A DNA stretch of 64,000 nt from Chloroflexota bacterium (GTDB taxonomy: Bacteria > Chloroflexota > Dehalococcoidia > Bin125), in assembly GCA_026707145.1 (NCBI GenBank), contig JAPOXK010000021.1, forward strand, positions 62,001-126,000. Reading direction: 5' to 3'. The notes beneath the pieces were generated by a model. That model was not told where the DNA came from, did no database searches, and was given only the letters and a program-made list of their open reading frames with translations. Both the position numbers and the translations under genes were made by a program. Of the stretch, positions 12,144 through 28,400 are shown in pieces; the stretch's first letter is position 1; each line of letters begins with the position of its first letter.

Positions 12144-12273
12144 TGAGATCCCCGAGAAGGCGTTGGCATTGCGAATCTCTTCAAGAACCCAGGGCTGCAC
12201 TCAATGAGTGAGGAGGTCTCTGACGCTTCGAGTATGTGCGGAGCGATCCCCTCTAGTCCGGCTCGCGCTCCGG

Positions 12274-13677
12274 CTAGTTGAACTGGGTCAAGTCCACCTC
12301 GATCGATCGGGTGATCCCCAGGTTCCCGTTCTCGAAGCGGAAGACGCCGTAGGAGCCGACGGTGGGGTCGCCGGCGGCGTTGAAGTTCAGGGGCCCGCTC
12401 ACGCCGACGTAGTCGATGTCCTGGCCGGCGGCGATGAGGGCGGCGCAGTCGGCGTAGGAATGGCACTCGCTGCCACCCTCGGTGATGCCGGGGAAGGCGG
12501 CGAGCATGGCGTCGCCGTCGGTGCTACCGGCGATCTGGGCGGCCAGGGCCAAGAGCACGATGCAGTCGTAGGCCTGGCCGGCGAAGTTCACGTTGCCGTC
12601 GCTGATGGCGGTGAGCCGCTCGTTGAACGCCTCGTTCCCGGCAACCCCGATGATCTGCATGCCGTCGAGCACCATCGGGTTGTTCGGGTCGATCAATTGC
12701 CACAGATAGGGATGGAAAAGGGCGTCCGAGCCGTACTGTATCTCGGGCCCGAGCCCGGCCTCGATCAGGTCGCGAATGATGCTTCCGCCGTCGATGAAGA
12801 AACCAACGTTCACGATCGCGTCTGGGCTATAGCCCACCACCGCCGCAACCTCGGCGTCGAAAGAGGCGGCGGCCGGATCGTAGAGGATGGTCTCGGACTC
12901 GGCGCCGATCTGGCCGAGCAGCGTGGCCACGAGGCCCGTGATCGCGATCCCATACTCATCGGCCCGGCCGACAAGCGCCACGCGGGTCGCGCCGTCTCCG
13001 GCAACGACGTTGGCGATGATCGGGGCGACCGCTTGCACGGGCGGCACCGTGCGGAAGAAGTAGGCGGCGTTCTCCTGTGTGCTGAAGGCCGGAGACTGCG
13101 CCGAGGGCGAGCACTGCGGGATTTTCGCGTCGTAGAGGGTTTGGATGACGGCTTGCGTGATGCCCGAGGAGGCCGGCCCGAGGATCACGTCGGCGCCCTC
13201 CGCCAGCAGGCGGTTGACCGCCTCGATGGCGACATCAGGGCTTGTCGCGGTGTCGGCACTCGTGACACTGACGTCGCCGCCGGCGGCGTTGATGTCCTCC
13301 ACGGCAAGGTGCATGGCTTCGACGGCGGGACCGGCGAGCGGGGCGAGCGGTCCCGTTTCCGGGATCAGCCTGCCGATCCTGAGCGATACGACTACAGGTT
13401 CGGGTTCAGGTTCGGGCGCCGGTTCGGGCGCAGGATCAGGTTCGGGTTCAGGCTCGGGCGCCGGTTCGGGTGCAGGATCAGGTTCGGGTTCAGGCGCGGG
13501 TGCCGGTTCGGGCGCAGGCGCGGGCTCGGGCGCGGGAGCCGGCTCGACCGCTGTGGTCGTTGGCTCTGCCTCGCCCTCCCCCTCTCCGCCGCCGCAGGCC
13601 GCGACGAGGAGCAGCCCGAGCATTCCGATCGAGACGAAGAGAGACCTGATCACGGTCCGGGCGCGAGATGTCGGCAT
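12274..13677 (-). CDS. LIV-type solute-binding lipoprotein, paralog B
   Basis: 467 residues. The signal peptide ends in lipobox LVAAC, and an unusually long low-complexity linker follows (about residues 35-92) built of [11 protein letters not shown] units. The type I binding domain begins [21 protein letters not shown]. The C-terminal half matches paralog A, with total identity over the last 108 residues. Its start region faces the divergent plus-strand livH-livM-livG-livF operon 258 bases away, so it is the most likely binding protein of that importer. The ligand is unknown. The tandem paralog may broaden ligand range. Confidence 0.92.
12277..12601. repeat. 325-bp identical block, copy 2
   Basis: This is the partner of 10785-11109 and forms the 3' coding end of paralog B. 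A single base next to the block (a at 12276 against g at 10784) turns a CAG codon of paralog A into the TAG stop of paralog B, explaining the five-residue difference at the C-terminus. Confidence 0.95.
13395..13520. repeat. Three 42-bp tandem units in the linker of paralog B
   Basis: Units at 13395-13436, 13437-13478 and 13479-13520, each starting CAGGTTCGGGTTCAGG on the plus strand; the third is more diverged. They encode 14-residue Pro/Glu/Ala/Asp repeats of the lipoprotein tether. The tether length could vary by slippage or recombination. Confidence 0.85.
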
Positions 13678-13935
13678 TGCAGCCCCCTGAACCTATAACT
13701 GCGCTTAACCAATGAGTGGGAGCGTAGATGACGCGGCTAGCATAGGAGTCTGGCGAACCGAAGTGCGCCTCGGAATCATAATCAGGAAGCATAGGTAGTA
13801 GTCATAAATCCGCCGGCTCGCCCAAGGCGGCGGTGGACCGCGCGCGAAGCGGTGACTTCGTGGAGGCTCTCGACCGGGGAGGACTCCAGCGCCTATAACT
13901 CCAGAAGCTTCGGGGCTCCGCGAAGGAGAGACGAC

Positions 13936-15228
13936 TTGACGTTCAGCCGCCCGAGCCGGGGGGTGCTCACGTTGGTCGCTGCGGCGCTCGCTTCCCTCCT
14001 TCTCATCGTCACGACCGCCGTCGCCTTCGCGCAGGAGGGCGACGAAGGTGAGGCCTTCTTCGGGACGTTGCGGTTCGAGGGCGACCCCGTTGCCGGCGCG
14101 CGCATCGCCGTGGTGGACGCCGCCGGGGATGCGATCGGTGAGGCGACGACGGACGATGACGGGAGGTGGCGGATCGTCCTTCCGGGGCCGGGAACCTACC
14201 GTGCCACGATCGACACGGATTCCCTGCCCCTAGGCGTCGGTCTCCGCGATCCGGAGCGCCGGTCGCTTGAAGCGACGGTCAGGGCCGGGCAGCCGCGGCC
14301 GCTGGTTTTCGCGCTCGGGGAGCCCGTCGCCGCCGGGCCGGGGCTGGGCGAGAAGCTCGCGCAGGCGGTGCTCAACGGCGTCAAGCTCGGTCTCATCATC
14401 GCCATGTGCGCGATCGGGCTATCGCTGATCTTCGGCACGACGCGGGTGATCAACTTCGCCCACAGCGAACTCGTGACGTTCGGCGCGATCGTGGCTTGGT
14501 ACCTCCATGCGGACACGATCGCGCTGCCGCTCATCGCCGCCGGCGTGCTTGCGATCGGGATCGCCGGCATCGCGGGCGGCGGTCTCGAGATCGGGGTCCT
14601 CCGCCCCCTCCGCCGCCGACGTCTCGGGCTGGTCCAGTTCATGGTCGTCACGATTGGGCTGTCGCTGCTCATCCGGCACATCCTGCTCATGTTCTTCGGG
14701 CCCGATCGCGATCGGTACACGGACTTCGCTCTCCAAGCCGAGTGGAGCTTCGGGCCCTTCGCGGTGACGCCGCGCGACTTCACGGTCATGGTGCTCTCCG
14801 CCGCCGTGCTGGTCGCGGTGGCGCTGTTCCTGCAGCGGGCGCGCATCGGGAAAGCGATGCGGGCGGTTTCCGATAATCCTTCGCTGGCCGAGTCCTGCGG
14901 CATCGACGTCGATCGTATCGTCCTCATCGTCTGGATTGCCGGCGCGGCCCTGGCAGCGGCGGGCGGGATCTTCTTCGGGACGGTGGAGTCCGTTGATTGG
15001 CTGATGGGCGCGCGCTTGCTGCTGCTCATGTTCGCCGCGGTCGTACTCGGCGGCTTGGGAACGGCCTATGGAGCGATGGCGGGCGGTCTCCTGATCGGCC
15101 TGGTCACGGAGGTGAGCACGATCTGGGTGGGCGCCGAGATCAAGACAGTCTTCGCCCTGGCGGTACTCGTCTTGGCGCTGCTCCTCCGGCCCCAGGGACT
15201 GCTGGGGCGGCGGGAGCGGGTGGGGTAG
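13936..15228 (+). CDS. livH: LivH-type permease fused to an N-terminal extracytoplasmic domain (system 2)
   Basis: 430 residues, far longer than the usual 290. A signal peptide (to about residue 33, ending AVAFAQ) is followed by a domain of about 80 residues with a carboxypeptidase-regulatory/CNA-B-like pattern: FFGTLRFEGDPVAGARIAVVDAAG, then DDDGRWRIVLPGPGTYRATID. The permease proper starts near residue 137 (LAQAVLNGVKLGLIIAMCAIGLSLIFG, RVINFAHSEL) and has the coupling loop RIGKAMRAVSDNPSLAESCGID. The TTG at 13936 is chosen because GAAGGAG lies 7 bases upstream and the signal peptide begins there. It is first of a tight four-gene operon. Urea permease UrtB also has an N-terminal extension, so a urea or amide importer cannot be excluded. 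Confidence 0.88.
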   Translation: MTFSRPSRGVLTLVAAALASLLLIVTTAVAFAQEGDEGEAFFGTLRFEGDPVAGARIAVVDAAGDAIGEATTDDDGRWRIVLPGPGTYRATIDTDSLPLGVGLRDPERRSLEATVRAGQPRPLVFALGEPVAAGPGLGEKLAQAVLNGVKLGLIIAMCAIGLSLIFGTTRVINFAHSELVTFGAIVAWYLHADTIALPLIAAGVLAIGIAGIAGGGLEIGVLRPLRRRRLGLVQFMVVTIGLSLLIRHILLMFFGPDRDRYTDFALQAEWSFGPFAVTPRDFTVMVLSAAVLVAVALFLQRARIGKAMRAVSDNPSLAESCGIDVDRIVLIVWIAGAALAAAGGIFFGTVESVDWLMGARLLLLMFAAVVLGGLGTAYGAMAGGLLIGLVTEVSTIWVGAEIKTVFALAVLVLALLLRPQGLLGRRERVG

Positions 15229-15230
15229 CG

Positions 15231-16226
15231 ATGGAGTTCGACGTCATCCTGGGGAATGCCGGCCGCGCCGGTCTCGGCCCGCAGGCCGCGATCTTCGCGC
15301 TGCTGGTGATCGGCCTCAACCTCCATTTCGGCTACACCGGCCTGCTCAACTTCGGGCAGGTCGCCTTCATGCTGGTGGCCGCCTACGGCACCGCCATCAC
15401 GGTCGCGACCTGGGGCGGCTCGCTCTGGCTCGGCATCCCCTTCGGGTTGGGGCTTTGCGTCGTTCTCGCCCTCGTGCTCGGCCTCCCCACCCTGCGCCTG
15501 CGCAAGGAGTACTTCGCTATCACCACGCTCGCCGCCGCCGAGATCCTGCGCCTGCTGGTCCGCTCTTCCCCCGCCACCGAGATCACGGGTGGGCCCTTCG
15601 GCCTGCAGGCGATCGCGGGCAGCTTCTACGCCCTCAACCCGATCGCGGAGGGCCGCTACGGGATCGGCACCTTCAGCTACACGGCGAATCAACTCTGGGT
15701 CATGATCGTCGCCTGGGTCCTGGTCGCGCTCGCCGCCGCGCTCGTATTCCTCCTGATACGCAGCCCCTGGGGCCGCGTCATCCGCGCCATTCGCGAGGAT
15801 GAGGACGCCGCCGCGAGCCTCGGCAAGAATGTCGTCGGCTACAAGCTGCAGGCGCTGGCGATCGGCGGCGTGATCGGTGGGCTCGCGGGCGTGGTCAACG
15901 CCTTGCAGCAGTCCGGGGTCGGCTCGGAGAGCTTCGGGTCGCAGGTCACCTTCATGGCCTACGTCGTGCTGATCATGGGCGGCGTCGCCACCACCGCCGG
16001 GCCCATCGTCGCGGCCGTGCTCTTCTGGTTCCTGCGGGAGGGCGTCGATTCGTTCCTCCGGCAGCTCTCGGAGGAGGCGTGGCTGCCGGACCTCCTCGCC
16101 GACTTCCTCTACGACGCGGGCGGCGCCGTCAGCATCGCGCTGGCGGGCATCGCCCTGATCCTGCTCTTGAAGTCCCGCCCCGAGGGGATCTTCGGAAAGC
16201 GCCGGGAGGGGGCCGCCGATGCCTGA
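15231..16226 (+). CDS. livM: LIV-type ABC transporter permease LivM (system 2)
   Basis: 331 residues. Hydrophobic segments include QAAIFALLVIGLNLHFGYTGLLNFGQVAFMLVAAYG, the standard LivM start. The ATPase-contact loop is WGRVIRAIREDEDAAASLGKN, and a late SFGSQVTFMAYVVLIMGGVATTAGPIV segment is typical. The ATG at 15231 lies 2 bases after the livH stop, and the end overlaps livG by 8 bases, so co-translation is expected. The C-terminal cytoplasmic tail ends in a basic RPEGIFGKRREG. Confidence 0.93.
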   Translation: MEFDVILGNAGRAGLGPQAAIFALLVIGLNLHFGYTGLLNFGQVAFMLVAAYGTAITVATWGGSLWLGIPFGLGLCVVLALVLGLPTLRLRKEYFAITTLAAAEILRLLVRSSPATEITGGPFGLQAIAGSFYALNPIAEGRYGIGTFSYTANQLWVMIVAWVLVALAAALVFLLIRSPWGRVIRAIREDEDAAASLGKNVVGYKLQALAIGGVIGGLAGVVNALQQSGVGSESFGSQVTFMAYVVLIMGGVATTAGPIVAAVLFWFLREGVDSFLRQLSEEAWLPDLLADFLYDAGGAVSIALAGIALILLLKSRPEGIFGKRREGAADA

Positions 16227-17088
16227 GCGGGCGCCGGAGAGAAGCGCGAGCGGCGGCGCGGCCCTGCCAGGGGGCGCCAAGCGCGATCCGATCCTGGTCG
16301 CCGACGGGCTGCGGCGCGCGTTCAGCGGCATTCGCGCCGTGGACGTCGATCACCTCGAGATCGCGCGCGGCGCCGTCACCGCCATCATCGGGCCCAACGG
16401 GGCGGGCAAGACCACGCTCTTCAACCTCCTCAGCGGCTTTGATCGCCCCGACGCCGGGACCTGGAGCCTCGACGGCAAGCGGCTGAACGGCTTGCCCGCG
16501 CACCGCATCAGCCGCCTGGGCATGGTGCGCACCTTCCAGCTCACCCGCGTGCTCGCCCGCCTGACCGTCCTTGAGAACGTGGCCGTCGCCGCGCCGGGGC
16601 AGTCCGGCGAGCGGCTCGATCGGGCGCTCCTGCGCCGGCGCTGGCGTGACCAGGAGCGGCAGGTCCGGGCGCGCGCGCGGACGCTGCTGCAGCGCTTCGG
16701 GATCGATCACATGGCGGACCAACCGGCGGACGCGCTCTCCGGCGGCCAGCGCAAGCTCCTGGAGATGGCCCGCGCGCTCATGACCCAGCCCCGGCTCATC
16801 ATGTTCGACGAGCCCACCGCCGGGGTGAATCCGGCGCTGACGCAGTCGCTGCTCGGCCACGTGCGCAAGCTCCAGGCGGAGGGGCTCACGATCGTCTTCA
16901 TCGAGCATGATATGGACGTGGTGATGGGGATCAGCGACTGGGTGGTGGTGATGGCGCAGGGCCGGATCCTGGCCGAGGGCCCGCCGGCGGATATCGTGGC
17001 CCACGCGGGCGTGATCGAAGCCTATCTCGGCCGCGCGCACGGCCTGGAGAAGGGCGGAGCGACGGAGAGCGAGGCGTCCCGTGACTGA
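16219..17088 (+). CDS. livG: LIV-type ABC transporter ATPase LivG (system 2)
   Basis: 289 residues with Walker A GPNGAGKTT at about residue 57, signature LSGGQRKLLE near 172 and Walker B MFDEPTAGVNP. An approximately 25-residue Ala/Gly/Arg-rich leader precedes the conserved domain, so a later start is possible. The segment between Walker A and signature is enlarged by an Arg-rich stretch (RALLRRRWRDQERQVRARAR). It overlaps livM upstream and livF downstream by 8 bases each. Confidence 0.92.
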   Translation: MPERAPERSASGGAALPGGAKRDPILVADGLRRAFSGIRAVDVDHLEIARGAVTAIIGPNGAGKTTLFNLLSGFDRPDAGTWSLDGKRLNGLPAHRISRLGMVRTFQLTRVLARLTVLENVAVAAPGQSGERLDRALLRRRWRDQERQVRARARTLLQRFGIDHMADQPADALSGGQRKLLEMARALMTQPRLIMFDEPTAGVNPALTQSLLGHVRKLQAEGLTIVFIEHDMDVVMGISDWVVVMAQGRILAEGPPADIVAHAGVIEAYLGRAHGLEKGGATESEASRD

Positions 17089-17827
17089 GCCGGCCGGGGG
17101 AACGCCGCTGCTGGAGGCGCGCGGGATCGTCGCCGGCTACGTGCGGGGGGTGATCATCCTCAACAACTGCTCGATCACCCTCAACGCGGGCGAGATCGTC
17201 GGCGTCGTGGGGCCCAACGGGGCCGGCAAGTCGACGCTCGTGAAGGCCGTCTTCGGCCTCGTCCCGGTCTGGTCGGGCGAAGTCCTCCTACGCGGCCGGC
17301 CGGTCACCAACACCCGCCCCCACCGCCTCGTCGAGGCGGGCATCGGCTACGTCCCCCAGACGGAGAACGTCTTCCCCCGCCTCAGCGTGCGCGAGAACCT
17401 GGAGATGGGCCTCTTCCTCGAACCCAAGGCCTGGCGCGAGCGCTTCGACTTCGTCGCCGGGCTCTTTCCCCTGCTGCGGGAGCGCGCGGGCCAGCGAGCC
17501 GGCTCCCTCTCCGGCGGCGAGCGCCAGATGGTGGCGATGGGCCGCGCCCTGATGATGCGGCCGGACGTCCTGCTGCTCGACGAGCCCTCCGCCGGCCTGG
17601 CGCCCGCCTACCAGGAGGAGGTCTTCGAGCAGGTGATCGCGGTCGGCCGCGCGGGGGTGGCCGTGCTCATGGTCGAGCAGAACGCCCGGCGCTGCCTCCA
17701 GATCGCGCACCGCGGCTACGTGCTCGATCAGGGCCGCAACGCCTACGAGGGCCGCGGCGAGGACCTACTCCACGACGAGAACGTGGTCGAGCTTTACCTG
17801 GGCACGCTCAGCGCCACCTCGCGCTGA
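17081..17827 (+). CDS. livF: LIV-type ABC transporter ATPase LivF (system 2)
   Basis: 248 residues with Walker A GPNGAGKST near residue 44, signature LSGGERQMV near 142, Walker B LLLDEPSAGLAP and the LivF-type C-terminus ending DENVVELYLGTL. The GTG at 17081 overlaps the end of livG by 8 bases. It is the last gene of the livHMGF operon. Directly after its stop the sequence changes to fragments of unrelated accessory genes. Confidence 0.93.
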   Translation: MTEPAGGTPLLEARGIVAGYVRGVIILNNCSITLNAGEIVGVVGPNGAGKSTLVKAVFGLVPVWSGEVLLRGRPVTNTRPHRLVEAGIGYVPQTENVFPRLSVRENLEMGLFLEPKAWRERFDFVAGLFPLLRERAGQRAGSLSGGERQMVAMGRALMMRPDVLLLDEPSAGLAPAYQEEVFEQVIAVGRAGVAVLMVEQNARRCLQIAHRGYVLDQGRNAYEGRGEDLLHDENVVELYLGTLSATSR

Positions 17828-18176: not shown

Positions 18177-18998
18177 CTACCGGCCCGGTGATGCTTGTGG
18201 AGCGGGTTCGTCCGCGATGGCGGGGCGGTTCCTCGCGGTGACCGTGAGGTCCCGCTCGTGATGCTCCAACAGCCGTCCATCCGCCATCTCGTCGACGCGA
18301 TCGGCGAATTCCAAGACGGTGCGATCGTGCGTCGCGGTCAGGATCGTCACCCCGCGCTGGTGCGCCAGCCGGCGCAGGAGGTCGAAGATGGCGCGGGCGT
18401 TGCCGGAGTCCAGCTCTCCAGTGGGTTCGTCTGCGACGATGAGCGACGGGTCGTTCGCTAAGGCGCGCGCGATCGCCACGCGCTGCTGCTCCCCGCCCGA
18501 CAGCTCGTAGGGACGGTGGTCGCTGCGAGCATGCAGATCCACGAGCTGGAGGAGCTCGGTCGTGCGGGCCCGGCGCTTCTGCAGGCCGGCGCCCGCGATG
18601 CGCAGCGCGACCTCGACGTTCTCGTAGGCCGAGAGGAGGGGCAGGAGGCCGAACGACTGGAAGACGAATCCGATCGCGTGGCGCCGCATCTGCAGCAGCT
18701 GGCGCTCCGGGGCGCGCGTGATCTCTGTGCCGGCCAGGTAGACACGGCCCGAGTCGGGGCGGTCGAGGCCGGCGATGCAATTCAGCAGCGTCGTCTTGCC
18801 GGATCCAGAGCGGCCCATCAGGGCGGCGAACACGCCCCGCTCGATGCGCAGCGAGAGATCCCGTACCGCCCAGATCTCCTCCCCGCCCACTTGGAAGCGG
18901 CGGCTCACCCGCTCCACCTGCACGATCGGCTCCGAGTGGCCCGCCGGCGCAGCCGGCGGAGCGGTGGGGCGCTCGCTGCCGGGCGGCCGGCCGGTCAT
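18177..18998 (-). CDS. ABC transporter ATPase, LolD/MacB type
   Basis: 273 residues. Walker A GRSGSGKTT is near residue 62, the Q-loop reads IGFVFQSFGLLPLLSAYENV, the signature LSGGEQQRVAIARAL is near 166 and Walker B LIVADEPTGELDS follows, the last being typical of ATPases paired with FtsX/MacB permeases. The N-terminal 25 residues are Pro/Ala-rich. It overlaps the upstream ATPase gene by 4 bases (ATGA) and is last of a three-gene operon, FtsX permease, ATPase, ATPase. The substrate is unknown; the family exports or extracts lipoproteins, peptides or drugs, or transduces signals to cell-wall enzymes. Confidence 0.92.
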   Translation of the reverse strand: MTGRPPGSERPTAPPAAPAGHSEPIVQVERVSRRFQVGGEEIWAVRDLSLRIERGVFAALMGRSGSGKTTLLNCIAGLDRPDSGRVYLAGTEITRAPERQLLQMRRHAIGFVFQSFGLLPLLSAYENVEVALRIAGAGLQKRRARTTELLQLVDLHARSDHRPYELSGGEQQRVAIARALANDPSLIVADEPTGELDSGNARAIFDLLRRLAHQRGVTILTATHDRTVLEFADRVDEMADGRLLEHHERDLTVTARNRPAIADEPAPQASPGR

Positions 18999-19975
18999 GG
19001 GTCGGCGTCGGGAGCGCGCGCGATGGTGACGCGACCGTCTTGAAGGTCCATCTGAACGTGGCTGCCCAGCCCCGCCGCGTCCCGCAGCTCCCTCGGGATC
19101 TGGACGCGGCCGCTGCGGTCGACCACTGTGTACTCGCGGCGGCCGACATCCGTGGCGCCGCCGGGCGGCGCTCCCGCGGCGTTGAAGATCTCCGTTGCGA
19201 TGCGGCCATCGCGGATCAGGGCCACGCGGGGCACGCGGTCCGTGATCCCTTCGTCGTGGGTCACGATCACGATCGTGACTCCGAAGCGACGGTTGAGGCC
19301 GGCGAAGAGGTCGAAGATCTGATCGGCGGTGCGGGTGTCGAGTTCCCCGGTGGGCTCATCGGCGAGAAGGAGGGGCGGCTCGTTGGCGAGCGCCACCCCG
19401 ATCGACACGCGTTGCTGCTCCCCGCCGGAGAGCTGCTCCAGGCGCGATCGTGCGCGCGCGCTGAGACCGATCGCCTCCAGCAAGGCCGTGGTGCGCGCAC
19501 GCACCTGCTGGCGCGGCCGGCCGGCGAGGACCATGGGCAGCTCGATGTTCTGGGCCGCGGAGAGGTAAGGGACCAGGTTGTGACCGGCCTGCTGCCAGAC
19601 GAAGCCGACCTGCCGGCGCCGGTACTCCACGCGCTCCGGTTCCTCCATCGTCAGCAGGTCCCGGCCGTCGACGAGGACGGAGCCGGCGCTTGGCAGGTCC
19701 AGGCCGGCCAGGATGTTGAGCAGCGTGGACTTGCCGGAGCCCGAGGCGCCGACGAGCGCAAGCATCTCGCCGCGCTTGATGCGCAGGTCCAGGCCCCGCA
19801 GCGCGACCACCTCCAGCTGCGCCACTTTGTAGATCTTGAAGAGGTCGGCGCAGACGATGTGCCAGTCGGGGTTCCCCGGCTCGGATCCGTCGCCGGCTAC
19901 GGAGGGCGGTTGCTGCGTCATCGGTCCCATCGTCGATCTCTCGGGCGCTTCCTCCGGAAGCCCGACCGGCATCAT
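18995..19975 (-). CDS. LolD/MacB-type ABC ATPase with C-terminal AbrB-like domain
   Basis: 326 residues. ATPase part: Walker A GASGSGKST (about residue 73), Q-loop VGFVWQQAGHNLVPYLSA, signature LSGGEQQRVSIGVAL (about 180), Walker B LLADEPTGELDT. After the ATPase comes a segment of about 45 residues (from about 281), REYTVVDRSGRVQIPRELRD followed by AAGLGSHVQMDLQDGRVTIA, which has the pattern of an AbrB/MazE/SpoVT swapped hairpin. The ATG at 19975 overlaps the stop of the FtsX gene (ATGA), indicating coupling; later ATGs at residues 16 and 19 are alternatives. The AbrB-like part could dimerise the ATPase or bind DNA; this is inference. Confidence 0.9.
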   Translation of the reverse strand: MMPVGLPEEAPERSTMGPMTQQPPSVAGDGSEPGNPDWHIVCADLFKIYKVAQLEVVALRGLDLRIKRGEMLALVGASGSGKSTLLNILAGLDLPSAGSVLVDGRDLLTMEEPERVEYRRRQVGFVWQQAGHNLVPYLSAAQNIELPMVLAGRPRQQVRARTTALLEAIGLSARARSRLEQLSGGEQQRVSIGVALANEPPLLLADEPTGELDTRTADQIFDLFAGLNRRFGVTIVIVTHDEGITDRVPRVALIRDGRIATEIFNAAGAPPGGATDVGRREYTVVDRSGRVQIPRELRDAAGLGSHVQMDLQDGRVTIARAPDADP

Positions 19976-22900
19976 TCGCCCAGCCGCAGGATGCGGTGGA
20001 GCGCGAGGCGCGCGTACAGTGCCACGACGACGCCGACCGTCAGCAAGAAGACGGCGCCGAGGATGGCGTAAACGATGCCGATCGTACCCCAGTCCGTGGC
20101 CAGTACGAAGGGCGGGACGACCTCCTCGCCGCGCTCGGTGATCCCGAGGAATTCGAGCATGAGGATGCCGAGGCGCGCACCGACTAGCGTGCCGACCGCC
20201 ATCGCCAGGACGACGATGAAGACCTTTTCGAAGGTGACGACGGCGAGCGTCTGTCGCAGGGAGAACCCCAAGGTGCGCAGGACGGCGAACTCCAACGCGC
20301 GCGCGCGCGCGGAGGCGAGCGAGGAGACGAGGAACCCGAGGATGCTCAGCAGGAGCACCGCGGAGAACGATAGGAAAAGCAAGCCGTCCCAGCCGGCGGC
20401 GGTGAGAGGGTCCTCGTTCTGGGCGTCGCGCAGCGCCTCGGCATCCCAGACCGTGGGATCGCCGAAGCCGCCGGCGGCGATCGTTGCGCGCAGGGAGGCG
20501 AGCCCGGCCGCATCCCGGGGATCGATCCACACCTCGTTCGGGGCGACGACGCCGGAGCGCGTGCCTTCCGCGTTGATGAGAAAGCTCAGCCGTTCCCCGT
20601 CGGCGAGAAGGAGGCCCCTCCCCTGCCGCGGGTCGAACGTGGGGAATAGATCGAACGCGCCCGCGATCCGAACTGGCATCGGTCCCTGGGATGCGAAGAC
20701 GAGAACGTCGTCGCCGGGGCGGAGGTCGGCCTCGTCGAGGAAGGCCTGATTGGCGATCACCGCCAGTGGGAGATCATCCCCGGCGATTCGGATCCCCCGC
20801 GTGGTTTGGAGGCTGCGCTCCCACGTGTAGCGGGCGGCGCTCTCACCGGAGACGACGAGATCACGTTCCGCGTTGAAACGGTCGGGACGGCCGGTGGCCG
20901 TGGCTTCGAAGACCGGCGTCCAGCGCTCGAGACTCTCGAAATCCTCGACTACGACGCCGTTGTCGAAGGGCGTATCCGGTGGCCCCGCTATGGGACTGTA
21001 TTGCAGGTCGTCGAACACGATCTGGTTGGCGAACGATCCGAAGCGCGGCGCCCGCCGCACGAAGATGCCCGTGACGGTGGCGGGGCCCGCAGCCAGGCCG
21101 TCCAGCGGCGCCGTGAGCAAGCGCCAACCGATCCCGCCGTCCAAGACGGGGCCCAGCCGCAGATCGATATAGCGTCCCTCGCTGTCCCGCATCCGCAGGG
21201 ACACGATCACGCTGCTGGTACGCATCAGATGGGCCCAGATCCCGATGCGCTCCGCGTCCGCGGGGATCGCCACGGCCGGAAGATCGAGCGGGTTCTCACC
21301 CAGCGGTGCCAGGAGCGTCGCCAGGGAATCAGCGGCCAGGTCGTCACGGAACCAGGCGACCTCCGGGAAGCGGACGGGGTCCACGCCGAGGAGATCGACC
21401 GCGATCGGACGGCCGTTCCTGAGCCGGTAGCGGATGTCGGTGCGGAGTGCTGCGCTCGCGGCGGCGACGTCGCTGCGGCGTTCGAACGCGGCCACCAGGC
21501 TGGCGGCGCCGCGCTCGTTCGTATCGAGCTCGGAGAGGCGGAGGGGTGCTCCGGCCAGGTAGGCCGCGCGATCGTCGAAGGATCGTTCGAGGGTCGCGCC
21601 GAACGTCGCGGAGAACATGCCGATCGCGGTCGCCAGGATGAGCAGGAGCACGAGGCGCGAATGCTCCAGCGGAGCACGCATCAGCTGCCATATCCCCAGT
21701 TGGAGCGGGGTGCGGCTGAAGCGCCGCGTGGCGCGGTCGACGGCTCGCACGAGCAGGGGGAAGAGGCGCAGGAAGACGACGGCCACCGTGACCAGGAAGA
21801 CCGTGGGCGCCAGCAGGAGGAGGGGATCGTAATTGAGGTCTCCGAACAGCTCCTCGGTCACGAGCGAATCCGATCTCTGGAGTTGGAAGAAGAGCAGCGC
21901 CGCCAGCACCACGACGACGAGATCCAGGTAGTAGCGATGGAAGGCGGATTGTCCCGCAGGCCGGGACAGAGCCTGCTTGTGTTGCACGACGCCGCGCCGT
22001 CCCATCGCGATCGCAGGGACGAGCAAGGCAAGGAAAGCCAACCCCGCCCCCAGCGCCGCCCAGGCGTAGGCGGTGGCAGTGAGCTGCGTGTCCAGCAGAG
22101 CGCCGCCGCTGAGTCCGTCGAAGGCGGGCGTCAGTCCGAGAAGCGATACGACGCCCAACGCGAGTGGCGGGCCGGCCGCTAGGCCGATCCCGGACAGGAT
22201 CGCGCCTTCGATCGCATAGATCCCAAGGATGTGACGAGTCCCCGCCCCCCGGCTCTTGAGCAGCGCGACCTCACCGGCCTGCCGCTCGACGAGCAGCGCC
22301 GCCACCATCATGAGGTAGTACAGCACGATCGCCACGATCTGGAGTGTCATCACCAAGAGCGGCACCTGCGCGAAGAAATCCCGCGTCGAGAAGGTATCCA
22401 GGAGGGCCGCCATCTCGCTCTGCACCCGCGCTCGGTCGGCACTGCCCAGGACGGTCCGCTCGAAGGTGTGCAGCCGTTGAGCCAAGGACTCGACATCGTC
22501 GGAGTCGATCGTCCTCAGGTCGAAGTAGGCGAGCGTCTCAAGGCGAGCGGTGATATCGGGAAGGTGCCCTGAGATCACGTCCAGGAGCGTGTCCTCCGTC
22601 GTGAAGAAGCGATAGGTGGGCGGGTCCTGCCGGTCCACGAAGAAGTAGTCGGTGCGGCGCCCCCAGTACTCCTCCTCCGCGTCCCTCTGGCCGATGAGCC
22701 CGACGACGGTCACCTCGATCGGCGCCACGTCTTCGCGCCAGAACGGGTGGAGGGCGAAGGTATCGCCGATCGCGACACCGAAGGCGGCCGCCGCCTCGGA
22801 GCCGAGCGCGACTTCGATTCTGGGCCCGCCCTGCGCCGTGGCACTGGATTCCGAAGTGGGCAAGCGTCCCCCGTCGATCGTGACGTGCGGGTCAAGCCCG

Positions 22901-23379
22901 GTCAGAAATTGCAGATTGGCGCGGGGGAGGTCGGGCGTTTGGCGGAAGCGGGTAGCGGGGTCGGTGAGGAAGAACGTCGCAGAGAGCGCGGTGCGGGTGC
23001 TGGCGCGGAGGTACGGATCGATCCAGCTCAGGGCCCGGTCGATGAGCAGCTGGGATTCCTCGTAGCCGGGCGACGCCAGCGCGTGCCCGCTCAGCGAGAC
23101 GGCCAGGTCAAGCTCCGTCTTGTCGGCGCGGCTCAACTCGACATCGATCCCGCGCTCCCGCAGTGCGTTGCGGTAGATCTCGGTGGCGGCCATCAAGCCC
23201 ACGGCCAGGATCACGCCTGCCAGCACAGCGGCCAGCAAGCGCCGGTGTCCGGCGGCCCGGCCCAGAGCGAGACGCAGCACGATGGGCAGCGTGATCAGCA
23301 TGACGAAGAGCGCTGCCCAAAGGTGCCCCGATCTGGCGGGGGTGCTTGGCGACGACGGCGCGCTAGGATCCGGCTGCAC
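19972..23379 (-). CDS. Giant FtsX/MacB-family permease 1 with internal beta-sandwich-like region
   Basis: 1135 residues. Layout: two hydrophobic segments (about 22-65), an extracytoplasmic domain, an FtsX block of three to four membrane helices (about 335-480), two further helices (about 495-560), another FtsX-type start (HSRLVLLLILATAIGMFSATFGATLERSF), a second large extracytoplasmic domain (about 620-985) and a final FtsX block (LLFLSFSAVLLLSILGFLVSS to the end). Inside the second extracytoplasmic domain (about 690-860) are segments reminiscent of carbohydrate-binding beta-sandwiches, for example VVVEDFESLERW and IVFDDLQYSP. The start is GTG at 23379. It heads the operon with both ATPases. 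Confidence 0.9.
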   Translation of the reverse strand: MQPDPSAPSSPSTPARSGHLWAALFVMLITLPIVLRLALGRAAGHRRLLAAVLAGVILAVGLMAATEIYRNALRERGIDVELSRADKTELDLAVSLSGHALASPGYEESQLLIDRALSWIDPYLRASTRTALSATFFLTDPATRFRQTPDLPRANLQFLTGLDPHVTIDGGRLPTSESSATAQGGPRIEVALGSEAAAAFGVAIGDTFALHPFWREDVAPIEVTVVGLIGQRDAEEEYWGRRTDYFFVDRQDPPTYRFFTTEDTLLDVISGHLPDITARLETLAYFDLRTIDSDDVESLAQRLHTFERTVLGSADRARVQSEMAALLDTFSTRDFFAQVPLLVMTLQIVAIVLYYLMMVAALLVERQAGEVALLKSRGAGTRHILGIYAIEGAILSGIGLAAGPPLALGVVSLLGLTPAFDGLSGGALLDTQLTATAYAWAALGAGLAFLALLVPAIAMGRRGVVQHKQALSRPAGQSAFHRYYLDLVVVVLAALLFFQLQRSDSLVTEELFGDLNYDPLLLLAPTVFLVTVAVVFLRLFPLLVRAVDRATRRFSRTPLQLGIWQLMRAPLEHSRLVLLLILATAIGMFSATFGATLERSFDDRAAYLAGAPLRLSELDTNERGAASLVAAFERRSDVAAASAALRTDIRYRLRNGRPIAVDLLGVDPVRFPEVAWFRDDLAADSLATLLAPLGENPLDLPAVAIPADAERIGIWAHLMRTSSVIVSLRMRDSEGRYIDLRLGPVLDGGIGWRLLTAPLDGLAAGPATVTGIFVRRAPRFGSFANQIVFDDLQYSPIAGPPDTPFDNGVVVEDFESLERWTPVFEATATGRPDRFNAERDLVVSGESAARYTWERSLQTTRGIRIAGDDLPLAVIANQAFLDEADLRPGDDVLVFASQGPMPVRIAGAFDLFPTFDPRQGRGLLLADGERLSFLINAEGTRSGVVAPNEVWIDPRDAAGLASLRATIAAGGFGDPTVWDAEALRDAQNEDPLTAAGWDGLLFLSFSAVLLLSILGFLVSSLASARARALEFAVLRTLGFSLRQTLAVVTFEKVFIVVLAMAVGTLVGARLGILMLEFLGITERGEEVVPPFVLATDWGTIGIVYAILGAVFLLTVGVVVALYARLALHRILRLGE

Positions 23380-23405
23380 CTGACGACGGTGGAGAGGGGC
23401 GGACG

Positions 23406-23810
23406 ATGCGCGCGTGCCTTACTGCGGCCCGGGCCGCTGGCCTTTCGCTGGCCCTGCTCGCCGCCCTGACCTTTGCGGCCACTGCGGTCTTGGGCTGGCG
23501 GATCACCGACGAATCCGATCCTGAGCCGCGCCGGATCTTCCAAGGCGAAGCCCTCATGGATAACGCTCCCCCTGCCGATCTGGCTGGCGTCGTGAGCGAT
23601 GTCGACGGGGAGTACGTCCAGGTGCGCGTCGATGAGACGCTGGTGTCTGTGCGTGTGGGGTCGGAGGCGCTGATTCAACGGCTCACTCCGATCACCCCGG
23701 CGGAGGTGCGGGCGGGGGAGTGGGTGATCGTCGGGGCGATCGATGACAACTCCCTTACGCTGGTCCTGCAGGCAGTGGTCGTCGCCGCACCGGACGAAGT
23801 CGCGCCGTGA
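23406..23810 (+). CDS. Small membrane-anchored protein, DUF5666-like
   Basis: 134 residues. One N-terminal hydrophobic segment (about 8-30, ending AVLGWRITDE) should anchor it with the rest outside the membrane. The remainder is beta-rich and has the DUF5666-like pattern LAGVVSDVDGEYVQVRVDE, then AEVRAGEWVIVGAIDDNSLTL. No function is known for this family. It is divergent from FtsX permease 1, 26 bases apart, and overlaps the next plus-strand gene by one base, so it is probably an accessory part of the exporter module. Confidence 0.7.
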   Translation: MRACLTAARAAGLSLALLAALTFAATAVLGWRITDESDPEPRRIFQGEALMDNAPPADLAGVVSDVDGEYVQVRVDETLVSVRVGSEALIQRLTPITPAEVRAGEWVIVGAIDDNSLTLVLQAVVVAAPDEVAP

Positions 23811-24322
23811 TGCCGCACACGTGGTGGGGCCTGGGCGCTTGGTTGGGGATCGTTGTGATCGCCGCTGTCGCGGGTTGGCTCGTCGGAGCGGAGTTGATCG
23901 CGCACAGCGCACGGCAATCCGAGCCTGTGCTGGTGCGTCCGGCGACCCCGAGCGCAAGTGGCGCGGCTGGGAGCGTGATCGTTCCCCGCAGTGGCTTGAG
24001 CCCCTTCGGTCACGCGGCGGGCTTGCCCGGGCGGCAGGTTCTGATTGGCCGTGTAACCGGCTCCGATCGCGAGACGCTGACACTGGCGTGGGCCGGTGGC
24101 AGGACTCGCTTCCGCTTCGCGGAAGGATCGAGCTTCCTGTTGCGGCTCGCACAGGAGCCCGAAGCGACGATCGAGCCGGGCGCCGCGATCGCATTGCTTG
24201 TGTCCGAGTCGGCTGGAGGTGCCCTGATCGCGCAGTCCGGCCTGTTGCTGCCGGAGGAGAGCCGGCCGCAGGTTCTGCCCGGGGAGATTATCGACGTGCT
24301 GGAGCTGGAATCGCTGCCCTGA
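23810..24322 (+). CDS. Membrane-anchored hypothetical protein, second DUF5666-like
   Basis: 170 residues from the ATG at 23810, which overlaps the previous stop (TGATG). A single N-terminal membrane segment (GAWLGIVVIAAVAGWLVGAEL) is followed by a flexible Pro/Ser region. A beta-rich domain follows, GRVTGSDRETLTLAWAGGRTRFRF and later IEPGAAIALLVSES, similar in pattern to the preceding gene product. It converges on FtsX permease 2, 19 bases apart. It was not recognised beyond this likeness. Confidence 0.68.
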   Translation: MPHTWWGLGAWLGIVVIAAVAGWLVGAELIAHSARQSEPVLVRPATPSASGAAGSVIVPRSGLSPFGHAAGLPGRQVLIGRVTGSDRETLTLAWAGGRTRFRFAEGSSFLLRLAQEPEATIEPGAAIALLVSESAGGALIAQSGLLLPEESRPQVLPGEIIDVLELESLP

Positions 24323-24341
24323 GACTTGCGTTGTGGCCATC

Positions 24342-27300
24342 TCACGCGGCCAATCGCAGCGCGTGCGTGATCGATCCGCGGGCGGAAAGGCGCCAGGCTA
24401 TTCCGACTCCCAAGGCGAGGGTCGCGACCAATCCGACGTAGGTGCCCAGGACGACCTCCCAGTCTGTCGTGAGCAGGAAGGGCGGCAGGACCCGATCGCC
24501 TGCCGCGTCGACTTCCAGGAAACGCAATGTGAGGCGGGCGATGCGATCGCCCAAGAAGGTACCGAGCCCCAGCCCGATGATCGCGACCACTGCGTACTCG
24601 GCCGTGAGTTGAGCGAGCAGCGCGCGCCGGCTGGTCCCGAGCGTGCGCAAGACGGCCATCTCCAGCGTGCGGTCACGCGCTGTGAGGACGACGCTCACTA
24701 GGAGTGCGACCAGCACGAGGATCGCGACGGCGACGAACGCAACCAGCAGGATGCCGCTGCCGCCGGCGGCAACCAGAGGGTCGGTCCCCACCGTGGCCAG
24801 CAGGGTCCGCTGATCGGTGACGGGCGCGCCCATCGCGGAGAGATCGCTCAGCGCCGCGACCGTGTGCGCCCGCCGTGCAGGATCGCTCGGCCCGCTGACC
24901 CACAGCTCGTTGATCGGAGTTGGGTTGCGGAAATCGAGGGTCGCGCCAAGGTGGTTGAGTTCGGCCACGTCGGTAATCAGGAACCCCCCGTTCTCTTGGG
25001 GATCCAGAGTCGGGAAGAACGCGACGGTCGCGATGATGCGCACGTCGATGCTGAATGGCCCCAAGTGCAAGGGTGCCGCGTCACCGACCCGGAGGCCGTG
25101 GTTGTGGAGGAACGTCTCGCTCGCGATCACATGGAGCGCACAACGTCCATCCACATCACACAGATTGGGACTGGGAAGGTAGAGGCCGCGACGGCCGGGT
25201 GAGACCCCCGCCGCCCAACGGTACTCCACGGCGCTGTTGCCGCTGTGGGCGACGATGTCCGTCCGGCGCTCGACCGCGTCTGTCGCGCCCGTCGCCGCGA
25301 GGGGTTGCAGCAGCCATTGACGAGCGTCCGATTCAAACCCCTCGATCAGGATGCGGTCACCACGCGCCGTGATCGCCACGAGATCGTCGAACAAGAGGCT
25401 GCCTGGTTCGCCGAGGCGCTGGGACTCGCCCTCCGTGTAGGTGATGGCGTGGAGGGTAAAGGGCGGGCGGGCGTCGCTGAACGCGGCGGGCCCGGTGGCG
25501 TCGCCGCGCAACTCTTGCCAGACACCGGCCAATCCAGGGCTGCCCAGCCCGACACGGAAGAACCGGCCGTCACGGTCGCGTAGCTGGAGCCACACCGAGA
25601 GGTCATCGCGCGGCACGCTCGGGTTCACCCACAGACTGAGTTCCATCAGGTCGTCGGGGAGTGGCAGGCCGCCGAGGCTGGCGGTGGGGCGGAGCTTGGG
25701 AAGCAGTGTCGCCAGGGGCTCGGAGCTGAAGTCGTCGCGGAACCACAGGATCGAAGCGGCTCGGGCGCTGTCCAGAGCAAGGATCTGTACCTCACGTCCC
25801 CGGACGCCGGTCGCGCCAACGCTACCGCGGCGCCGGATCGCGAGTGTGCTCGCGCTGGCGCCCGGCAGCGCTTCGATCTGCGCTTGGGCCAATCCGGGCG
25901 GGCGGGGGTCCGCTCCCACGCGGAGGTCGACGCCGGCCTCAAAGCGGGCGCGCTCGTCGAGCGAGCGATCAACCGTTGCGTCGTAGGATGCGGCAAACGT
26001 GCCGAGCGCCGCGGCGAGCATCGTCAGGACAGCGAGCCGAATGACCGGACTGGGATTGCGGGCTGCCTGGCGGAGCGCGGCGGCGATCGGCATAGAGATG
26101 CGGTGCCTTGCGATCCAGGCCAGAGCGGAGAGGGCAGGCGGAAGCAGACGCAGGACGAGGAGGATCGCGATCAGGCCAACGAGCGCCGGAGCGATCAGGA
26201 CGAGCGGCTCGGTGGAAAGGCCGCCAACCGTGTTGCGTGTGAACACCGCGTCGCGCGCGCCCACCGACCAAACGAGAAACCCCGCGACCGCTACGAAGAC
26301 AATGTCGAGGTAGTAGCGCTGAAAGACGTTGCGACCGGCTGGCCGCGCCGCTATGCGCCGGGCCGGGCCGGGTGGGACGCGCGCCGCCTCCGCGACTGGG
26401 ACAAGGACGACGCCCATTGCCAGCGCCGCTCCTGCCAGCGCCAGCGCCCAGGCTTGCGGCGTGAGAGAAATTGCGATCCAGTCATTGCTGGTGACGTCGC
26501 GGAAGCTGCCGATGAATCCGAGGGCGCTCACGGCAGCCGCGGCGATCAGCGGCGCCACTGCCGCCGCTAGGATCACGATCAGCAGGAGTTGCAGAGCGTA
26601 CAGCCCGAGCACCTGCAGCAACGAGGCGCCTCGACTGCGCAGCAAGGCGATCTCGTCGGTCTCTCTGCTTATCAGAAGACGGGCCATCACGAAGATGAAG
26701 AGGAAGACGACGCCGACGACCTGTACCACGATCAGCAAAATCGGCACGACGCTGAAGTCGCGTGCCTCTTGGAAGCTGCGTAGTGCTCCATCGAACGAAC
26801 TCGATACCGCTCCCCCGACCGAGGCAATGTCCGTCTGGAGGTTGGCGAAGCGATCGAGATCGGCGGGAACGTCGGCGCTGTCGAACGTGTTGAGCGGAAT
26901 CAGGTCCACGAAGCGGATGTCGGCGCGGTAGCCAGGGAGCAGCTGGCTTAGCGGACCGAAAAGCGCGTCAGAGTGAACGAAGAGCGCGAAGACCCGCGGT
27001 AGGGCCAGGCTCTTCCGCGGCTCCCGGGGGCGCGCAAGATTCGCAAGCGCCGCGTCCCAAAACGGATCGTGGGGGTTGTGCGCGTCGAAGATACCGACCA
27101 CTTTGGCCGGGAGTTGTAGGCCGATCAGCGCAGATGTGGCGCAAGGCTCGAGCGAGGGCGATGTCGCCGCGGTGGGACCGTCGAGTAGCGGCGGCTCGCG
27201 GTCACAATCGTCGTAAACGTCCGCGACCGCGAACGCATCCCCCACTCCGAGGCGAGCAAACTCGGCGTGGGCGCGCGGGAGCGCGACTTCGATGGGACCG

Positions 27301-27698
27301 TCGAGTTGGGAAAGGCCTAGCTCAGGGTCGAGAGTCATCGTCGGCGGGGCGGGCGGGCGCCCTTCAAACTCAACGTAGGACTCCCACCCCTCGATCGTGG
27401 TGAACTCCCCGCCGAGTGGGGCAGAACCCGGGATCTGAGTGCCAGCGAGCAGGCGGAGGTCACTGACAAGCCCCGACCGTATGCGCCGAGGCAGCGCGAT
27501 GTCGCCGAAGTGCGCATCAAGGCTGGCTTCGGCGAAGTCACGCACTGCCTGCGCGCGTTCCCCGCCCAGCAGTGTCTGGGAGATCGTGACCTGGACGGAG
27601 CCAATCTGGCCGGCCTCACGGTCGAGTTCGAAGTCGAGCCCCAAGTCCGTGAGCGCGCGCGTATACACGGTGGTGGAGGCCATGAGCCCAGACGTCAC
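24342..27698 (-). CDS. Giant FtsX/MacB-family permease 2 with internal beta-sandwich-like region
   Basis: 1118 residues from the GTG used here. It is collinear with permease 1: extracytoplasmic domain, FtsX block (VPILLIVVQVVGVVFLFIFVMARLLISRETDEIALLRSRGAS), middle helices, second extracytoplasmic domain with LLFDDLVAIT and ILIEGFESDARQW (about 660-840), and a C-terminal FtsX block. The true start is uncertain: the same frame stays open upstream and encodes the missing first helix (RANWRLLGIVGLGILV), but offers only CTG or ATT as start codons. No ATPase gene follows it, so it may share the two ATPases of permease 1. Confidence 0.88.
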   Translation of the reverse strand: MTSGLMASTTVYTRALTDLGLDFELDREAGQIGSVQVTISQTLLGGERAQAVRDFAEASLDAHFGDIALPRRIRSGLVSDLRLLAGTQIPGSAPLGGEFTTIEGWESYVEFEGRPPAPPTMTLDPELGLSQLDGPIEVALPRAHAEFARLGVGDAFAVADVYDDCDREPPLLDGPTAATSPSLEPCATSALIGLQLPAKVVGIFDAHNPHDPFWDAALANLARPREPRKSLALPRVFALFVHSDALFGPLSQLLPGYRADIRFVDLIPLNTFDSADVPADLDRFANLQTDIASVGGAVSSSFDGALRSFQEARDFSVVPILLIVVQVVGVVFLFIFVMARLLISRETDEIALLRSRGASLLQVLGLYALQLLLIVILAAAVAPLIAAAAVSALGFIGSFRDVTSNDWIAISLTPQAWALALAGAALAMGVVLVPVAEAARVPPGPARRIAARPAGRNVFQRYYLDIVFVAVAGFLVWSVGARDAVFTRNTVGGLSTEPLVLIAPALVGLIAILLVLRLLPPALSALAWIARHRISMPIAAALRQAARNPSPVIRLAVLTMLAAALGTFAASYDATVDRSLDERARFEAGVDLRVGADPRPPGLAQAQIEALPGASASTLAIRRRGSVGATGVRGREVQILALDSARAASILWFRDDFSSEPLATLLPKLRPTASLGGLPLPDDLMELSLWVNPSVPRDDLSVWLQLRDRDGRFFRVGLGSPGLAGVWQELRGDATGPAAFSDARPPFTLHAITYTEGESQRLGEPGSLLFDDLVAITARGDRILIEGFESDARQWLLQPLAATGATDAVERRTDIVAHSGNSAVEYRWAAGVSPGRRGLYLPSPNLCDVDGRCALHVIASETFLHNHGLRVGDAAPLHLGPFSIDVRIIATVAFFPTLDPQENGGFLITDVAELNHLGATLDFRNPTPINELWVSGPSDPARRAHTVAALSDLSAMGAPVTDQRTLLATVGTDPLVAAGGSGILLVAFVAVAILVLVALLVSVVLTARDRTLEMAVLRTLGTSRRALLAQLTAEYAVVAIIGLGLGTFLGDRIARLTLRFLEVDAAGDRVLPPFLLTTDWEVVLGTYVGLVATLALGVGIAWRLSARGSITHALRLAA

Positions 27699-28070
27699 GA
27701 GAATGCCGAGACCTACGATGCCGAGCAGTCGCCAGTTGGCGCGAGCGCGTAGGAAGAGGAGTCGCAGAGTGGTGTTCTCTCTCGCCCGGTGATCGAGGCG
27801 CCGAGTAGTGTAGCGAGCAATGGAGATCTCGCCGCAATCCGGCCCGGCGGTTCAGGCTGGATCCCCGTCAGGGTACTCTGCCCTTGCTAAAGGAGGAGTA
27901 TCTGTTTTGGCCGCCTGAAAAGAATTCTGCTAGCCGCGAATTCGCGGACTCTTCGGGAGGCCGAGTCCAGTTGTGGAGTTCAAGCGTCAGGACGGTGGCG
28001 CGGCTCTGGTCGTCCGTGATGACACGGAACCATTCGCCGAATGGCGCGGCGCTGCCCCGGCGAAGATGCG
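27699..28070. other. Gene-poor 372-base stretch upstream of FtsX permease 2
   Basis: The first about 70 bases probably encode the true N-terminus of permease 2 on the minus strand. The rest has no confident gene. It holds an isolated AAAGGAGGAG at 27889-27898 without a convincing reading frame behind it, and a 14-base perfect palindrome centred on GAATTC (27934-27947). A plus-strand frame from 27973 looks protein-like for about 35 codons but runs into the antisense of tRNA-Asn. Confidence 0.5.
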
Positions 28071-28146
28071 TGGCTCCCCGGGCAGGACTTGAACCTACAA
28101 CCTAGCGGTTAACAGCCGCCCGCTCTACCAATTGAGCTACCGGGGA
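28071..28146 (-). tRNA. tRNA-Asn (GTT)
   Basis: 76 bases including encoded CCA. The acceptor stem is TCCCCGG/CCGGGGA, the D-loop arm AGCTCAATTGGTAGAGC, the anticodon loop CTGTTAA giving GTT, and the T-arm GTAGGTTCAAGTCCTGC. It is last of a three-tRNA cluster transcribed Leu-Gln-Asn. Confidence 0.96.
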
Positions 28147-28155
28147 ACGCGAGGT

Positions 28156-28229
28156 TGGCTGCCGAGCCAGGATTCGAACCTGGACTAAGGGATCCAAAGT
28201 CCCGCGTGCTACCGTTACACTACTCGGCA
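28156..28229 (-). tRNA. tRNA-Gln (TTG)
   Basis: 74 bases including encoded CCA. The acceptor stem is TGCCGAG/CTCGGCA, the anticodon loop CTTTGGA giving TTG, and the T-loop GGTTCGAATCC. It lies 9 bases upstream of tRNA-Asn on the same strand. Confidence 0.96.
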
Positions 28230-28311
28230 CCGCGCCGTCGAGCTATTGACTTTTCTCAGGCACCTCCGTCCGCCGCTGGCCCGCGGCTCCCGAAGCCGCG
28301 GCGAAGGGTGC

Positions 28312-28400
28312 TGGTGCCGAAGGCCGGACTCGAACCGGCACGGGAGTCGCCTCCCAACAGTTTTTGAGACTGTCGCGTCTGCCAATTCCGCCACTTCGGC
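28312..28400 (-). tRNA. tRNA-Leu (CAA)
   Basis: 89 bases including encoded CCA, with the long variable arm of a class II tRNA. The acceptor stem is GCCGAAG/CTTCGGC, the anticodon stem ACAGT/ACTGT with loop CTCAAAA giving CAA, and the T-loop GGTTCGAGTCC. It is first of the cluster; an 82-base spacer separates it from tRNA-Gln. Confidence 0.96.

Follow-up and report, generated by a model that had tools for sequence, protein, structure and literature searches.

We describe a conserved and genuine six-gene membrane system of Chloroflexota in which twin giant permeases (PERM1 and PERM2) are accompanied by one pair of ATP-binding cassette (ABC) ATPases (ATPA and ATPB) and two small membrane-anchored proteins (SP1 and SP2). 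The system lies in a stretch of 64,000 nucleotides, called the window here (contig JAPOXK010000021.1 of assembly GCA_026707145.1, positions 62,001 to 126,000). The source genome is 2.4 Mb in 28 contigs, and its closest relatives are Chloroflexota metagenome-assembled genomes, many of them labelled Dehalococcoidia. On the computed evidence, namely the parts, their predicted folds, their conservation and their co-occurrence, the core of the system is widespread in the phylum. By its predicted structure the system is a member of the Type VII (mechanotransmission; MacB/LolCDE/YbbAP) ABC superfamily. A first-pass annotation, made from the sequence alone, had placed all six genes correctly and had recognized two giant permeases, two ATPases and two small anchored beta-rich proteins. 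The orientation that it set out needs correction, as SP1 and SP2 are on the plus strand, opposite to the permeases and ATPases. The features are as follows (TM, transmembrane helix; ECD, extracytoplasmic domain).

18177-18998, minus strand: ATPB, tailless ABC ATPase of the LolD/FtsE/MacB group; it follows ATPA immediately in nearly all related loci
18995-19975, minus strand: ATPA, ABC ATPase with a C-terminal AbrB/MazE/MraZ-like tail; its start overlaps the PERM1 stop
18998-19186, minus strand: AbrB/MazE/MraZ-like tail of ATPA, from motif and profile matches
19972-23379, minus strand: PERM1, FtsX-type permease with ten TMs, 1135 amino acids
22360-23181, minus strand: first ECD of PERM1, residues 67-340, between TM1 and TM2, from hydropathy, with the YbbP-like topology seen on PERM2
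20389-21594, minus strand: second ECD (ECD2) of PERM1, residues 596-997, MacB/LolE-like Porter and Sabre parts with a jelly-roll insert, from AlphaFold2 and Foldseek
20770-21285, minus strand: jelly roll of PERM1, residues 699-870, within the Sabre part, from AlphaFold2, Foldseek, the jelly-roll profile and the FlaA match
23406-23810, plus strand: SP1, N-terminal membrane anchor and small beta domain (weakly DUF5666/OB-like)
23807-24322, plus strand: SP2, N-terminal membrane anchor followed by a homolog of the SP1 beta domain; overlaps with SP1
24342 to about 27767, minus strand: PERM2, FtsX-type permease with ten TMs, about 1140 amino acids, paralogue of PERM1; non-ATG start, candidate CTG at 27767
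25140-25676, minus strand: jelly roll of PERM2, residues 697-875 (numbered from base 27764), from alignment with the PERM1 jelly roll and strands in the AlphaFold2 model
27141-27206, minus strand: cysteines C187 and C208 in the first outer domain of PERM2, invariant in 23 PERM2 sequences

Conservation across Chloroflexota

The systematic search covered Chloroflexota, with a sample of 400 genomes. FtsX permeases of 930-1,300 amino acids are common in the phylum, the family profile matching 142 of the 400 genomes, and the tailed ATPA was found in 139. Both were present in 137 of the 144 genomes having either and only one of them in the other 7, a match that is nearly one to one and is not due to chance, in a count that takes in related, non-independent genomes. 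With the exception of one genus-level group, referred to below as the rearranged group, PERM1, ATPA and ATPB are contiguous in nearly all related loci. Where there was room downstream of PERM1 in the named genomes (47 loci), both ATPases were found in 30 and one was scored in 2, the remaining 15 being the rearranged group and locus L067. In nearly every Dehalococcoidia genome carrying the system, two permeases are matched by just one tailed ATPA; therefore one motor pair is probably common to both permeases. The rearranged group also has a second, diverged PERM2-PERM1 pair with no ATPase nearby (L047:4528-11117 and L048:4737-11460), and here four permeases may depend on the one tailed ATPA of each genome. 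A VWA-domain protein of about 1,090 residues was seen near PERM2 in 13 loci of this group (for example L058:645-3926). Other neighbouring genes (DNA polymerase I, MutM, IlvD, CoA-transferase, MFS and POR) were considered as functional partners and rejected, as they vary with the lineage and look like housekeeping genes.

Fold and topology of the permeases

Both permeases exceed 1100 residues, as the first-pass annotation had it, but its comparison with a usual length of 300-650 residues overlooks the ten-helix YbbP, which has 804 amino acids. Each permease gives two matches above the cut-off to the FtsX family of Pfam (whole-protein E = 5e-12 and 3.6e-13), and the two are paralogues with about 30% identity. 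Hydropathy gives ten helices in each, with an additional hydrophobic N-terminal stretch in PERM1, and outer domains of about 270 residues after TM1 and about 400 residues after TM7. The order is thus TM1-ECD1-TM2 to TM7-ECD2-TM8 to TM10, with long stalk helices and with TM1 and TM2 extended, and the same topology is found in the AlphaFold2 model of PERM2 (predicted local distance difference test score, pLDDT, 80.5; predicted template-modelling score, pTM, 0.72). When full-length PERM2 was searched with Foldseek, the best solved relative was YbbP of E. coli (E = 1.6e-16 over 1,164 alignment columns), followed by BceB, LolE and MacB. It is this closest fold on which the Type VII assignment is based, and three features of the superfamily are present, namely an FtsX-type transmembrane fold, a Porter-type outer domain on helical stalks and ATPases of the LolD/FtsE/MacB group. 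In a tree built by a quick method, with long basal branches, PERM1 and PERM2 fall into distinct clades with parallel branching. The two probably go back to an old duplication and have persisted as a pair.

Jelly roll in the second outer domain

A beta-sandwich had been proposed in the second outer domains, with structure prediction as the suggested check, and the prediction now bears this out. The isolated ECD2 of PERM1 (AlphaFold2, pLDDT 91, pTM 0.89) contains a jelly roll of high confidence that resembles those of carbohydrate-binding modules (CBMs) and FlaA. The frame of ECD2 is similar to the LolE and MacB periplasmic domains, nearest to LolE (5udf, target TM-score 0.65 in Foldseek), while the insert matches CBM22, a Ruminococcus CBM, the sugar-binding domain of EclA and FlaA1, each individually weakly (E 0.02-0.07). 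By its place in the succession of strands and helices, the jelly roll sits inside the equivalent of the MacB Sabre subdomain; in the MacAB pump this subdomain provides one of the contact surfaces for the adaptor (PMC5985334). A profile mixed from PERM1 and PERM2 (A1) aligns PERM positions 675-771 with FlaA 130-228, the C-terminal half (E = 9e-5), and the PERM2 profile (A4) matches FlaA with E = 0.009. The PERM1-only ECD2 profile found no relative in a PDB search, so the FlaA match is that of the mixed and PERM2 profiles. It may be added that the DFE..W segment, which comes first in FlaA (39-63; the resemblance alone is insignificant at 0.1 bits), follows rather than precedes the W..DDL motif in the permeases, and this order suggests that the jelly roll is circularly permuted relative to FlaA.

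The jelly-roll profile matches 172 of the 182 long permease frames examined. The ten frames without a match are mostly permeases of other classes and remote homologs, one being the diverged second-copy permease of L047 in the rearranged group. Because both permeases carry it, the insertion predates the PERM1/PERM2 duplication. A Pfam search of the jelly roll gave no match, CBM families included, and nothing relevant on FtsX permeases with jelly rolls was found in the literature searched. It is possible that the jelly roll, and with it the system, senses or handles a glycan. A second giant FtsX permease of the source genome (L049:6810-11023, C13), of 1157 amino acids, remotely related and with its own ATPase, has no jelly roll and barely matches the PERM profile (23 bits).

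ATPases and the tail of ATPA

ATPA and ATPB are full ABC_tran proteins with complete Walker A, signature, Walker B and H-loop motifs. The C-terminal tail of ATPA, which the first-pass annotation did not mention, comprises 60 residues with the consensus VVDxxGRLQIPRExLexLxI..RaRV..gD.V.I.P and is conserved across Chloroflexota, the full ATPA profile reaching into it in nearly all of the 139 matching genomes. On searching 27 such tails against Pfam, 18 matched MraZ and 12 MazE_antitoxin (best 8.5e-6), mostly below the cut-offs when taken singly; the tail of the window alone scored 18.2 bits, below the cut-off of 24.7. Against structures the tail profile gave weak scores to MraZ, MazE, SpoVT and AbrB. 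Kinship with SRP54 was considered and dropped, since those matches span only about 28 residues around the common VVDTAGRL motif and are read as coincidental. The literature searched held no description of an AbrB-ABC ATPase fusion.

SP1 and SP2

A comparison with hhalign shows the two small proteins to be homologs (probability 96.5%, E = 9e-10). In Pfam and NCBIfam they belong to no family except for one weak DUF5666 match, and a literature search on DUF5666 found nothing relevant. From tblastn with the window proteins they seemed confined to close relatives, a view ruled out by profile searches, which found diverged and fused homologs. Profiles made from the small-gene pairs beside distant PERM2 genes and run on all six-frame open reading frames of the loci recover SP1 of the window with 33 bits (E = 6e-8) and SP2 with 21 bits (E = 2e-4), and in several loci (L039, L066, L069, L074 and L076) the two are fused into a single protein. 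SP1 and SP2 are present at the 3′ end of PERM2 in 22 of the 38 PERM2 loci with room for them and in 22 of 23 outside the rearranged group. They remain convergent to PERM2 even where it lies apart from PERM1 (L100, L101 and L104-L109).

In three genomes (G021, G180 and G219) an HlyD/MacA-type adaptor gene is found directly upstream of a related permease, as identified by Pfam in G180 and G219, by phmmer in G021 and by gene order. The PERM1 of G021 (L042:5363-9304), directly behind its HlyD-type adaptor gene, has a coiled-coil-like insertion of about 180 residues in the first outer domain. These adaptors favour a working partner of the MacAB kind for the family at large and suggest that SP1 and SP2 take that place in the lineage of the window.

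Proposed mechanism

In YbbAP, LolCDE and MacB no molecule passes through a pore; ATP binding shifts the stalks and outer domains, by which a molecule is lifted or pushed on the outside (PMC12646458, PMC5985334). From the common fold we infer the same mechanotransmission here, with an amphiphilic molecule of the envelope as cargo that would be extracted or presented in an ATP-driven manner, as in YbbAP or LolCDE. Each permease would be an internally duplicated YbbP-like ten-helix unit with two MacB-like outer domains on stalk helices, and a single permease would form the entire transmembrane unit. ATPA and ATPB most likely make up a heterodimeric motor, one pair of which would drive both permeases. 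Going by position and homology, the jelly roll in the Sabre part of ECD2 would recognize the headgroup of the cargo or a partner, and SP1/SP2 would be the extracytoplasmic partner in place of the MacA-type adaptors of some relatives. The AbrB-like tail of ATPA may be a dimerization or regulatory module and may tie two ATPA subunits, and hence two permease complexes, together. Taken as a whole, this model of a Type VII ABC machine with YbbP-like permeases, an ATPA/ATPB heterodimer as motor, an amphiphile as cargo and SP1/SP2 as partner appears to us reasonably probable. A bolder version is rather doubtful, namely a separate Chloroflexota subclass of Type VII in which an AbrB-type swapped dimer would join two giant permease complexes, whose paired jelly rolls together with SP1/SP2 would pull a glycosylated lipid or lipoprotein from the membrane for building or maintaining the envelope.

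Several observations weigh against the model. The whole-model TM-scores against YbbP are moderate (0.35-0.47), which 330 additional residues and differences in rigid-body placement would lead one to expect. On clustering the neighbours of related loci, no conserved enzyme emerged beside the cluster, and no hydrolase or chaperone was found to be consistently adjacent. In the rearranged group the ATPA-ATPB pair and SP1 are unlinked from the permeases, yet present elsewhere in the genome. Also, several genomes retain the permeases and ATPases while SP1/SP2 are undetectable in them; the small proteins are therefore taken to be accessory. On the whole, the co-occurrence of the genes, the second check suggested by the first-pass annotation, turns out largely in its favour.

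Alternative explanations

The system could instead export or detoxify antimicrobial peptides or toxins in the manner of MacAB or YknXYZ, SP1/SP2 being a reduced adaptor. The HlyD-type adaptor genes that immediately precede related permeases in G021, G180 and G219 speak for it, as does the presence of MacA-type adaptors with MacB homologs in Gram-positives (PMC5985334). But neither the window nor most Dehalococcoidia loci have an adaptor, the ATPases are separate proteins, and conservation throughout the phylum in single copy (one tailed ATPA per genome in the class) fits a housekeeping role better than drug defence. We consider such an exporter unlikely.

It is quite unlikely that the six genes are not one system, that is, that the permeases and ATPases form a system with SP1/SP2 as bystanders. 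Several things would suit bystanders: SP1/SP2 are encoded opposite to the other four genes, some genomes lack them or show no detectable copy, and one group has them away from the permeases. Against this, they converge on PERM2 in 22 of the 23 loci that do not belong to the rearranged group, even where PERM1 does not adjoin it, and the rearranged group itself has retained SP1.

An FtsEX-like regulator of peptidoglycan hydrolases, where movement of the outer domains activates a wall enzyme and the jelly roll binds wall glycan, belongs to the same superfamily. Within the class, the system is associated with MurG (67 genomes with both, Fisher p = 3.6e-13, uncorrected for descent), and SP1 is commoner in MurG-positive than in MurG-negative carriers of the system (27 of 30 against 5 of 21, confounded by descent and profile bias). 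On the other hand, 21 of the 88 system-bearing genomes of the class lack MurG, of which 16 are at least 90% complete, the conserved neighbours of the cluster include no amidase or other wall enzyme, and FtsX has four helices and one small outer domain. As these 16 genomes keep the system, peptidoglycan cannot be the sole purpose of the core; a peptidoglycan-specific role is largely rejected on the MurG-negative carriers, and the FtsEX-like explanation is left with a slim chance. A MurG match is missing from many genomes of the class, near-complete ones included, so loss of peptidoglycan may be widespread there.

It is likewise very improbable that the system is a BceAB-like sensory complex without BceS, in which an envelope glycan or antibiotic would be bound by the permeases and the signal passed to gene expression by way of the AbrB-like, possibly DNA-binding, tail: the tail is conserved in the tailed ATPAs examined and BceB is the second-best solved relative of PERM2, but the tail matches are mostly below the Pfam cut-offs singly, part of the tail resembles a short SRP54 motif, and it could equally be a mere dimerizer.

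Gene starts and neighbouring genes

Overlaps of a few bases, typical of translationally coupled genes, are found between PERM1 and ATPA (19975/19972), ATPA and ATPB, and SP1 and SP2. The open frames of both permeases exceed 1,140 codons. The first-pass annotation started PERM2 at GTG 27698, which would remove TM1, whereas homology and hydropathy place TM1 upstream of this codon. The frame is open to 27851 and has no ATG, GTG or TTG upstream of 27698; CTG 27767, preceded by a GA-rich stretch, is the likeliest start. The true start of PERM1 may be internal, as its homologs align only from about residue 22-34. A disulfide between C187 and C208 of PERM2 is probable. Just upstream of PERM2 there is a cluster of three tRNA genes (Asn, Gln and Leu; window 28071-28400). 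On the other side, the six-gene locus adjoins a complete ABC importer operon of the branched-chain amino-acid type, named by eye, with two permeases and two ATPases (window 13852-17827) and, along with it, two probable solute-binding lipoproteins (10767-12200 and 12274-13677).

Comparison with known systems and significance

The first-pass annotation knew of no described system of this composition. We likewise found no match in the literature searched, but the overall architecture is that of the known Type VII superfamily, the nearest system being YbbAP(-TesA) of E. coli. The latter shares the ten TMs, the outer domains at TM1-2 and TM7-8, the internal duplication and a separate LolD-like ATPase (PMC12646458). 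The present system differs in its 330 additional residues, the jelly roll in ECD2, two paralogous permeases and two different ATPase genes, one with an AbrB-like tail. In YbbAP the ATPase is a homodimer at 2:1 with the permease. Small anchored proteins are present instead of a TesA-type hydrolase, of which none was found encoded in the cluster or conserved beside it, no search for an unlinked partner having been made. BceAB is alike in its ten-helix FtsX permease, but BceB lacks the first outer domain and has BceS as its membrane partner (PMC12646458), whereas the present permeases have both outer domains and the cluster contains no kinase gene. LolCDE and LolDF share the MacB-like outer domains, the ECD2 frame, which is nearest LolE, and LolD-like ATPases, but their subunits have four helices. 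With the NCBIfam models the permeases score 21 and 19 bits for lolCE (cut-off 362) and the ATPases 206-212 bits for lolD (cut-off 308). MacAB, YknXYZ and SpMacAB belong to the same superfamily, and some Chloroflexota relatives adjoin an HlyD/MacA-type adaptor, but no ATPase is fused to the permease N-terminus here and no MacA-type adaptor gene lies beside the window permeases. The jelly roll is like that of spirochete FlaA and the CBMs, by the profile match to the C-terminal half of FlaA and the fold matches to CBM22, CBM, EclA and FlaA1, and differs in being inserted in a permease with the motif order reversed. The tail of ATPA is like AbrB, MazE and MraZ domains in motif and profile matches, except that it is C-terminal on an ABC ATPase.

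About one-third of the sampled Chloroflexota genomes (the 137 of 400 above) have the core, usually in single copy, and a search of the literature turned up neither the core nor the tailed ATPase. If the proposed mechanism is true, the system would form a second branch of ten-helix Type VII machines beside YbbAP. It would also open a way to study the lifting of cargo out of the membrane in a phylum with a poorly understood envelope, some lineages of which apparently lack peptidoglycan, and the role of an AbrB/MazE-like domain on an ABC motor becomes a concrete, testable question.

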